Shown here: one piece after another, positions 57,938 through 60,086 of the stretch
How positions within the stretch are numbered: the stretch's first letter is position 1
Layout: the number at the start of each line of letters is the position of its first letter
Source of the DNA: an uncultured Microcaldota archaeon
GTDB lineage: Archaea > Micrarchaeota > Micrarchaeia > Norongarragalinales > CAINOH01
Length of the DNA stretch: 64,000 nt
Direction of reading: 5' to 3'
NCBI GenBank assembly: GCA_903851445.1
Contig: CAINOH010000023.1
Coordinates: 74,518-138,517, forward strand
Notes under the pieces: model-generated
Databases searched by the model: none
What the model was told of the DNA's origin: nothing
What the model saw: only the letters and a program-made list of their open reading frames with translations
Translations under genes and position numbers: made by a program

Positions 57938-58042
57938 TGCGGCTGCCGGGAATCGAACCCGGGCTTCAAGCTTGGGAAGCTCGCGTCATACCGTTTGAGC
58001 CTGCCCCCAGTTGCCGATGCGGTAAAAGGAGTCTACAGCCGC
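57938..58042 (-). tRNA. tRNA-Gly (CCC) with a D-arm intron
   Basis: Acceptor GCGGCTG (58036-58042) pairs with CAGCCGC (57939-57945); A73 at 57938. Removing 57999-58032 gives a complete cloverleaf: D stem GTCA/TGAC, D loop AACGGTA, anticodon stem CGAGC/GCTTG with loop TTCCCAA (anticodon CCC), T arm CCGGG-TTCGATT-CCCGG. Exon 1 is only 10 nt. The gene is followed by a CTTTTTCCC terminator. Its 5' ten bases are shared with the 3' end of the LAGLIDADG gene. Confidence 0.93.
57999..58032 (-). other. 34-nt tRNA intron between positions 10 and 11, with bulge-helix-bulge motif
   Basis: Reading the minus strand, CTGT (exon 1) pairs with GCAG (intron end), giving a 4-bp central helix; the 3-nt bulges AGA and GCT flank it on opposite strands, each cut after its second base; the inner helix is CTCC/GGGG. 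This is the canonical substrate of archaeal tRNA splicing endonuclease, and these cut sites give exactly the D stem needed. Confidence 0.85.
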
Positions 58043-59019
58043 ACAGCCGCGATGATAATTGGGCGGGTTACCTTTTTACTGTGAGCCCATTGGGAATACC
58101 TAATAAGGTTTTTGTGGTTGGAAAAGCCGACCTCGCGTGCATAACGATGCACCTCCGCCTGCGTCTGAATCCGTATCGCATTCCCGCCGGATGTTGATGG
58201 GTGGAAACCAAGCCGCTTGATTCCAATCTTGAACAAATTTAGAAGCGATTTGTTAAGGTTCTTGAATTCAATAAGCAGGCGCATATCTTTCCTGCTTTTT
58301 CTAAAAACTCCACCATCAGTGTCCACAAGACCGCGCACAAAACGTCGAGTAAGCTTTTCATTTTCCATGAAAGCGCGGGGAACGCGTATAGTCAGCAATT
58401 TTCTCGCGCCAAGCGGAATCCCCTGTTTTGCGAGAAATGATGCAAGCTCGGTCGAATGGACGAACACGCTAATGCAAGAACCTTTGCACCTTACGAATTT
58501 AGACGGCCTCTTTCCAAAAAGGTTTTCCACAAGAGAACAGACGTAGTCTGCATACTCGTTTTCGCACCGGTTGTTAAGTGTTATTATTATGGTTTTTCTT
58601 TCGATATGCCCGTCTCCGAGGACGATTCCGGCGAATTCAGCAAAATTCGGGGAATTAACTATGCCGAGACGAATCTTTTTCATCCGTTTAATCCCCTGCG
58701 AGCGTAAGCTGTTTTCAATTCCCTTGAGTTGCCCCCAGTTCGGATCCAAATACTCGACAATGGATGAATTATATTCTGCCCTCCGGCCTTTCGAAAGCAT
58801 CCGGACGAGCTTCAAGAAATGCGGTTCTGAAATCGTTGTAAACTCGCGACCCCAAGCGATGCGTGCAGTATACATAGATACGCTCAGTTTCTTCGAAAAC
58901 TCCGGCCACGTAAACCCGCGACAAGCTTTCACCGTTCGGATAAGCTTGACCAGCTTTCCGGGCTTTAACCGTATACGGCGACTATGGCAAGCTCTTATTA
59001 CACGAAAAGGATGAAGCAT
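58033..59019 (-). CDS. LAGLIDADG homing endonuclease
   Basis: 328 aa from the ATG at 59019; the frame opens to 59088 but a TATA-like element (TTTTAACC) near 59038-59045 fits a leaderless start at 59019. The N-terminus (about 20-75) looks like a helix-turn-helix (FTWPEFSKKLSVSMYTARIA). Two LAGLIDADG motifs follow, FAGIVLGDGHIER (129-141) and VRGLVDTDGGVFR (228-240), so it is a monomeric two-domain enzyme with both catalytic acidic residues. Such enzymes cut long specific DNA sites to spread introns or inteins. Unusually it is free-standing: its TAG stop is bases 8-10 of the adjacent tRNA-Gly, ending precisely at the exon-intron junction. Confidence 0.88.
   Translation of the reverse strand: MLHPFRVIRACHSRRIRLKPGKLVKLIRTVKACRGFTWPEFSKKLSVSMYTARIAWGREFTTISEPHFLKLVRMLSKGRRAEYNSSIVEYLDPNWGQLKGIENSLRSQGIKRMKKIRLGIVNSPNFAEFAGIVLGDGHIERKTIIITLNNRCENEYADYVCSLVENLFGKRPSKFVRCKGSCISVFVHSTELASFLAKQGIPLGARKLLTIRVPRAFMENEKLTRRFVRGLVDTDGGVFRKSRKDMRLLIEFKNLNKSLLNLFKIGIKRLGFHPSTSGGNAIRIQTQAEVHRYAREVGFSNHKNLIRYSQWAHSKKVTRPIIIAAVRL
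58035..58050. repeat. 8-bp tandem duplication at the endonuclease/tRNA-Gly junction
   Basis: The plus strand reads ACAGCCGC twice in a row (58035-58042 and 58043-58050); on the coding strand GCGGCTGT is duplicated so that the tRNA 5' acceptor strand is preceded by its own copy inside the endonuclease gene. Confidence 0.8.
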
Positions 59020-59138
59020 AAAAGACAAAATAAGAAACGGGTTAAAAGCGGCCCGGAACCTGCTTTCCGGTGATTGGTAAAATAGCACCTTCGAACTGAA
59101 CCATTAAAGCGTTATTTCACCACAATTATTCGAAGTTG

Positions 59139-60086
59139 ATGATTATGACAAACTCAGTTATAGGCGTCTTTTCGCCTGACGAGGAAAAAAGGCAGCACAT
59201 AGCGTCGATGCTCGGGAAGAAGGGCTCCGCTGATGACATCAGCCTGTACAACACCAACTTTGGCGGAAAGCTCGTGACTACTGTCGAGCCCACGCTTTAC
59301 CCTAAAAAGGTCGAGGCGCTTGCATTCTGCGCGTATCTTGCGGACTACTGCATCGTGCACGCTGACGCGCTTACCCCTGAACTTGGGGAAATCATAGTCA
59401 CGCTTGACCTTTTGGGAAAGGACAGGGGCTGCCTTGTTGGCGATAATGTTGACTGGGATATGTTCTGCAAGGGAACCGCACTTGAAAAGTACGAGCGGGT
59501 GGAATCTGATGAGGACGCAAAGCAGAAGGCGCTTGCGTTCGTCCCCGAGCAAAAGGACGCGACTGAAACCGTCGCGGTCATAGACCACGCGTTCGAGGTC
59601 AAGGGAGTGGGCTCGGTTGCGCTCGGGATAATCAAGAGTGGAAAGCTCAAGGTGCACGACAAGCTGCAGGCGTTCCCGTCCGACAGCTTCGTTGAAATAA
59701 GGAGCATCCAGATGCAGGACAAGAATTTTGACGAGGCAGGGCAGTCCGACCGTTTCGGAATCGCGTTCAAGGGGATGAAGTCGGACGACCTCGGGCGAGG
59801 GATGGTCCTTTCGAAGGCATGTCCGACTGCAAGCACGGTCGCTGCAGAGCTTGAAGTTGCGCGCTTCTGCAAGAGGCCGGTTGAGAACGGCGAAGTGATG
59901 CACTTTTGCTGCGGGATGCAGATGGTGCCGGGAAAAATCCAGTCCGAAGGTCCGATTGCAGCAGGAAAGAAAATGAAAGTCACCGCAACTTTCGACCGCA
60001 AGATGGCGCTTCCAAAAGGGGAAACTGTTTTGGCCTGCAGGCTGAACGAAAAAGGCCTGCGGGTGGTTGGAAGGATGCCCGCCTAA
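59139..60086 (+). CDS. EF-1A/EF-Tu-like protein lacking a functional G domain
   Basis: 315 aa from the ATG at 59139 (alternatives 59136 TTG, 59145 ATG). The C-terminal half reads as EF-Tu domains 2 and 3: AFEVKGVGSVALGIIKSGKL, VHDKLQAFPSDSFVEIRSIQ, then FGIAFKGMKSDDLGRGMVLS and a final barrel. The first 140 residues have a degenerate GTPase fold (SVIGVFSPDEEKRQHIASML) with no GxxxxGK[S/T] P-loop, DxxG or NKxD. Archaeal proteins of this kind are known as EF-1A paralogues of unknown role, possibly tRNA- or ribosome-binding. It ends directly against the convergent gmhA stop. Confidence 0.8.
   Translation: MIMTNSVIGVFSPDEEKRQHIASMLGKKGSADDISLYNTNFGGKLVTTVEPTLYPKKVEALAFCAYLADYCIVHADALTPELGEIIVTLDLLGKDRGCLVGDNVDWDMFCKGTALEKYERVESDEDAKQKALAFVPEQKDATETVAVIDHAFEVKGVGSVALGIIKSGKLKVHDKLQAFPSDSFVEIRSIQMQDKNFDEAGQSDRFGIAFKGMKSDDLGRGMVLSKACPTASTVAAELEVARFCKRPVENGEVMHFCCGMQMVPGKIQSEGPIAAGKKMKVTATFDRKMALPKGETVLACRLNEKGLRVVGRMPA

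Follow-up and report, generated by a model that had tools for sequence, protein, structure and literature searches.

The window analysed here is a stretch of 64,000 nucleotides from a metagenome-assembled genome of the Micrarchaeota, with an assembly of 1.09 Mb and a completeness of about 81%. On its minus strand, a gene for a LAGLIDADG homing endonuclease runs into a tRNA-Gly(CCC) gene and ends within it, and the tRNA gene is in turn split by a putative intron. The features of the locus are listed below.

58033..59019, minus strand: LAGLIDADG homing endonuclease gene, 328 aa (PF14528, E=1.5e-6; profile matches given in the text)
58612..58614, minus strand: codon of the first catalytic Asp, D136 (FAGIVLGDGH), invariant in a 16-row alignment
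58315..58317, minus strand: codon of the second catalytic Asp, D235 (VRGLVDTDGG), invariant in the same 16-row alignment
59053..59072, minus strand: CACCGGAAAGCAGGTTCCGG element, located ahead of the endonuclease start and recurring in relatives of the order
58033..58035, minus strand: TAG stop codon of the endonuclease, equal to T8-A9-G10 of tRNA-Gly(CCC)
58035..58050, minus strand: tandem octamer GCGGCTGT, two copies, at the endonuclease/tRNA junction
57938..58042, minus strand: tRNA-Gly(CCC) gene, 105 nt with intron (custom tRNA scan and fold; 3' part also Rfam RF00005)
58033..58042, minus strand: tRNA exon 1, bases 1-10 (GCGGCTGTAG), which also codes for the last residues and the stop of the endonuclease
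57999..58032, minus strand: putative tRNA intron, 34 nt, between bases 10 and 11, whose excision restores the D-stem GTCA/TGAC
57938..57998, minus strand: tRNA exon 2, bases 11-71, with the anticodon CCC (custom tRNA scan and fold)

The endonuclease gene and the split tRNA of the window

The endonuclease frame starts with an ATG at 59019, encodes an HTH-like N-terminal region followed by two LAGLIDADG motifs, and closes with the codons GCG GCT GTG CGG CTG TAG. The G-D-G and D-x-D-G columns do not vary across the family (16-row alignment), and the window protein retains both catalytic Asp residues, that is, the two motifs with acidic residues by which LAGLIDADG enzymes are recognized. The family profile matches I-DmoI (1.2e-8) and intein endonucleases in the PDB, and the Pfam matches of the window protein are exclusively to LAGLIDADG domains, none being to the GIY-YIG fold. 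The gene is a free-standing open frame of 356 codons with no in-frame fusion to a host protein, as an intein would have, and apart from the 10-nt overlap it lies upstream of tRNA base 1 rather than inside the intron, which bears out the first-pass annotation of this DNA on that point. Its reading of the stop codon was also correct: TAG occupies bases 8-10 of the tRNA, and the 34-nt intron follows base 10.

A motif of the form C[CT]GG[AC]AA[GAC][CG] (e.g. CACCGGAAAGCAGGTTCCGG) occurs near the start of 17 of 32 LAGLIDADG genes of the order, where about 0.04 would be expected, and in the window and its order-mates it is located just upstream of a TATA-like region; it is possibly an operator or promoter element that travels with the mobile unit. 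The gene adjoining the endonuclease (59136-60086) encodes an EF-Tu-domain-2 protein, a homologue of which is found beside tRNA-Gly(CCC) in genome G169 (right flank of L075), on the opposite side of the tRNA.

The spliced tRNA-Gly(CCC) has 71 nt and folds as a cloverleaf, and excision of 58032-57999 was the sole splice found that restores its D-stem. The 5' junction of the intron falls within three bulged nucleotides (AGA) flanked by two 4-bp helices, an arrangement which, as predicted from sequence, is a relaxed rather than a strict form of the bulge-helix-bulge, the archaeal splicing motif. This tRNA is absent from the ARAGORN output and badly positioned by Rfam because of the 34-nt insert after base 10. 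The other tRNA-Gly of the genome found by similarity search has the anticodon TCC. Introns in the D-loop are also seen in tRNA-Gly genes of the order-mates L004 and L014, with no adjoining endonuclease noticed, and L014 apparently has a second intron.

The first-pass annotation had further noted that the octamer GCGGCTGT is repeated in tandem at the junction, as it is (58050-58043 and 58042-58035), and had suggested that the repeat could be a duplication created by insertion. This suggestion is rejected. Among 76 sense junctions tested, an 8-nt match was present at the window only, at least 8 nt match in about 1.4% of mismatched junction/tRNA pairs, and what the relatives duplicate is about 20-27 nt of the tRNA 5' end, located on the promoter side of the gene, away from the complete tRNA. 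One other junction, L078, does have the tRNA 5' end twice (AGCGGGGTATAGCGGGGTAAC, tRNA-Met); the junction test overlooked it, since the first copy had been called as the start of the tRNA.

Relatives of the endonuclease at tRNA genes

Outside this genome, the best match belongs to a different family of the same order, and it too is joined to tRNA-Gly(CCC), with a TGA stop at bases 8-10. A profile of 16 proteins of this kind was run against 196 genomes of the class, together with a scan of named genomes, and with inteins removed it yielded 158 non-redundant loci; a scan of the named genomes with a single protein gave no matches, and A1 is too divergent for back-translated patterns. When inteins, rRNA introns and contig ends are left out, 138 loci are assessable, and 127 of them abut, overlap or contain a tRNA gene (intron-split tRNAs being read by eye). 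The endonuclease 3' end meets the tRNA 5' end in 97 loci (sense) and the tRNA 3' end in 23 (antisense), the tRNA 3' end meets the endonuclease 5' end in six (mirror), and one gene, L025, is located within a tRNA intron and is thus intron-encoded. The rest of the 158 comprise 18 loci in rRNA genes, 11 others and two at contig ends; the rRNA loci were assigned from conserved rRNA strings and by eye, and L093 and L106 match none of the strings. Automatic calls placed a tRNA at the endonuclease 3' end in 98 of 156 loci (63%) and at its 5' end in 8 of 156; for control positions taken from the same flanking DNA, the figure was 26 of 1137 (2.3%). At the level of the family, the tRNA junction is far beyond chance, a preferential adjacency of a free-standing gene to tRNA genes of the kind known for SegB. 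In 20 sense loci, endonuclease gene and tRNA overlap by exactly 10 nt, and the stop is TAG in 17 of them, TAA in two and TGA in one. The hosts include Micrarchaeota, Woesearchaeota, Pacearchaeota, Diapherotrites, Aenigmatarchaeota, Altiarchaeales and CPR bacteria. Viruses were considered as carriers and discarded: only distant LAGLIDADG proteins were found there, and none of the 30 such relatives stands at a tRNA.

The association extends to the identity of the tRNA. On a tree of 110 LAGLIDADG proteins bearing 25 isoacceptor labels, some of them assigned by eye where the tRNA contains an intron, the isoacceptor changes 34 times, against a mean of 86.8 and a minimum of 78 in 200 shuffles; each lineage holds to one tRNA isoacceptor, a fidelity established by comparison of sequences. 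The groups linked to tRNA-His, tRNA-Arg(CCT) and tRNA-Ala(CGC) each span more than one phylum. The rows nearest to the window (L079, L071 and L075) belong to other families of the class and are all at tRNA-Gly(CCC), so that conserved synteny far from tRNA-Gly, which would have spoken against a tRNA-directed gene, is not what the relatives display. The linked tRNAs of the 110 labelled loci are often isoacceptors with C34 (Ala-CGC, Arg-CCT, Thr-CGT, Ser-CGA, Gly-CCC, Gln-CTG), a preference in which sampling bias is possible. The codons of C34 isoacceptors may also be read by a U34 tRNA.

Empty sites, occupied sites and a model of insertion

The first-pass annotation had proposed comparing the locus between related genomes, and such a comparison is provided by one genus, g70, in which empty and occupied alleles coexist. 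In three genomes (G127, G295 and G237) metK is directly followed by one intact tRNA-Gly(CCC), and in G170, whose enzyme is the nearest kin of the window's in the tree, metK is followed by GCGCCAGTAGTCTAGTCTGATTAGGATA (tRNA bases 1-27, not 8 bp), then by the endonuclease, and then by a complete tRNA-Gly. In G232 the same point between metK and tRNA-Gly holds a fragment of about 27 nt of the tRNA, an endonuclease resembling the G022 lineage and a complete tRNA-Gly, so that two different LAGLIDADG lineages occupy one insertion point. The inserts measure 862 nt (G232) and 1034 nt (G170) and have room for the LAGLIDADG gene alone, with no place for the recombinase of tRNA-integrating elements. The same polymorphism of presence and absence is seen in genus g40, where rpoK precedes one tRNA-Ala(CGC) in G132 and G087 and is followed in G048 and G163 by a tRNA-Ala 5' fragment, the endonuclease and a complete tRNA-Ala. 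In genus g16, the same neighbours flank tRNA-Gly without the endonuclease in G017 and with it in G022.

A leave-one-out tRNA 5' matrix was used to look for displaced tRNA 5' fragments upstream of the endonuclease start. It detected them in 13 of 81 sense loci, compared with 0 of 81 for the opposite strand and 1 of 74 for a control region lying further upstream. Clear remnants are thus detected in a minority of loci, and they end variably, at about 20-27 nt of the tRNA. Antisense loci retain tRNA 3' fragments (L176, with 22 of 24 bases, L037 and L121), and in the mirror loci L173, L175 and L177 a displaced tRNA 3' fragment is found downstream. Together, the alleles and the displaced fragments indicate that what was inserted comprises the endonuclease gene and one tRNA end, and that the tRNA is made whole again on the near side; site, duplication and regeneration are in this way established by comparison. 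The window itself holds no recognisable displaced tRNA-Gly fragment, and in G010 the homologues of its two flanking genes stand head-to-head with neither tRNA nor endonuclease between them, so that synteny cannot date the insertion. The proposal of the first-pass annotation that this is a tRNA-targeting mobile gene which regenerates the tRNA 5' end is therefore strongly supported by the alleles, fragments and isoacceptor fidelity of the relatives, and insertion in the window is deduced from the close ones.

Taken as a whole, the model of a free-standing LAGLIDADG gene that homes to tRNA-Gly(CCC) as a mobile unit of gene and tRNA 5' cap is very probably correct. The unit would consist of the endonuclease gene with a copy of the first ~26 tRNA bases, the cap, fused to its 3' end. 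We infer that the enzyme is active and that it would cut the unoccupied tRNA gene near the junction of the D-arm and the anticodon arm, at about base 26, as suggested by where the remnants end (about 20-27). By analogy with known homing, the double-strand break would be repaired from the occupied allele, and gene and cap would be inserted after about base 26. The host's own bases 1-26 would then be stranded upstream, running into the endonuclease promoter, and the cap together with host bases 27-72 would form a complete tRNA, which makes splicing unnecessary. Since the cap directly follows the frame, the frame would often stop at T8-A9-G10 inside the tRNA.

Because the rebuilt tRNA again holds an uninterrupted target, it would need protection from cutting, and this is likely to come from a changed cap sequence or from an intron, for instance the one of 34 nt that follows base 10 of the window's tRNA. 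In G170 the cap (GCGCTAGTGGTCCAATCTGGTAAAGAC) differs from the displaced fragment (GCGCCAGTAGTCTAGTCTGATTAGGATA). The rarity of re-coded D-stems was considered as proof of self-protection and is unsupported as such, given that D-stems vary as much in tRNA-Ala(CGC) genes with no detected upstream endonuclease motif; on account of this variation, protection is put forward as a hypothesis. The D-stems of tRNA-Ala(CGC) are highly variable in Micrarchaeota (L271-L328), with GATC, GCGC, GCGT, GCTC, GTCG and GTCT among them and compensating partners, and they are perhaps scars of earlier invasions. A broader reading is somewhat less likely to hold than to fail: a 'home-and-rescue' drive, in which a needed tRNA gene would be destroyed, the re-coded or intron-split tRNA end of the element would both rescue it and resist cutting, and each enzyme clade would be specialised on one isoacceptor, in DPANN archaea and CPR bacteria alike.

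The likeliest alternative to this model is collaborative intron homing, in which the endonuclease would cut intron-less tRNA genes and thereby mobilise the adjoining intron, so that the intron and not the cap would be the resistant mark. The window intron does start immediately behind the stop and interrupts the D-stem, introns occur in many linked tRNAs, and L025 sits inside one; but many other linked tRNAs have no intron (L023, L065-L067, L075, L108, L112), so that an intron is not needed, the occupied G170 tRNA is intron-free, and empty alleles differ from occupied ones by the endonuclease and the 5' duplication and not by an intron. Intron homing is accordingly unlikely. It is considerably less probable still that the protein is a domesticated, immobile LAGLIDADG maturase or tRNA-gene regulator held beside its tRNA by selection, as might be suggested by the association of enzyme clade and isoacceptor, stable over phyla, and by the HTH-like N-terminus of some members. 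Against domestication stand the presence and absence of the gene within genera, the two lineages at one site (G170, G232), the endonuclease frames broken by stops in some relatives and the retention of the catalytic Asp residues.

Mere genome compaction, with a gene upstream of a tRNA by chance borrowing TAG as its stop, is highly improbable in view of the 63% versus 2.3% of automatic tRNA calls, the displaced fragments and the isoacceptor fidelity, even though overlaps do arise without mobility, as shown by metK, whose stop in congeners falls on tRNA-Gly bases 8-10. At those junctions (L330, L331, L333, L329) the metK stop inside tRNA-Gly is TAA or TAG, which means that T8-A9-G10 is used as a stop by other genes too; as a mark of the endonuclease, the stop at bases 8-10 is real but partly a property of the tRNA sequence.

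Comparison with known mobile elements

Selfish endonuclease genes are thought to persist in essential genes mainly inside introns and inteins, or beside genes. The elements described here point to a further solution: they interrupt an essential RNA gene internally and supply a replacement end, which leaves the host with a functional tRNA. The design is found repeatedly, at many different tRNAs, in archaea and bacteria with tiny cells. It would account for the large number of free-standing LAGLIDADG genes that touch tRNA genes in DPANN and CPR genomes, and it offers a source of tRNA gene fragments, possibly also of split or intron-bearing tRNAs. It further provides a large natural collection of nucleases whose tRNA-gene targets can be predicted. 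In open PMC papers we found no description of LAGLIDADG genes that are inserted in tRNA genes and bring a rebuilding cap, and the design is provisionally regarded as new.

Integrative elements with a tyrosine integrase also insert into tRNA genes, which they repair with a piece of tRNA that they bring along, normally the 3' end. They resemble the present elements in both respects and differ in that they use an integrase and the 3' end, whereas here a LAGLIDADG nuclease is the only gene and usually the 5' end is restored. Transposing introns of archaeal tRNA genes differ in being spliced and in having no nuclease gene. They too indicate, as far as the citing text goes, that archaeal tRNA genes house mobile DNA (Fujishima 2010, cited in PMC10714607). 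LAGLIDADG endonucleases are known from rRNA introns and inteins of archaea and CPR bacteria (PMC6125680, PMC11270868, PMC10643990), including genes within rRNA genes in archaeal group I introns and CPR rRNA insertions (PMC6125680, PMC11270868), the latter paper making no mention of tRNA. These belong to the same superfamily, and 18 of the 158 loci found here are in rRNA genes; however, they spare the host gene by RNA or protein splicing, and here it is the carried tRNA end that spares it.

The nearest known case among open PMC papers is SegB of phages T4 and T6, a free-standing GIY-YIG homing endonuclease located among tRNA genes, which, according to passages from two papers, cleaves tRNA-containing DNA, shares microhomology between the segB 3' region and a tRNA 5' region in phage T6, and is widely associated with tRNAs in phages (PMC2988022, PMC13096335). 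SegB differs in its nuclease fold, in its phage hosts and in targeting a tRNA cluster, with no isotype preference stated in those passages, which also do not describe that it inserts inside a tRNA gene and brings a cap to rebuild it. What SegB, as portrayed there, and the LAGLIDADG genes of this family share is that both are free-standing and linked to tRNA genes.
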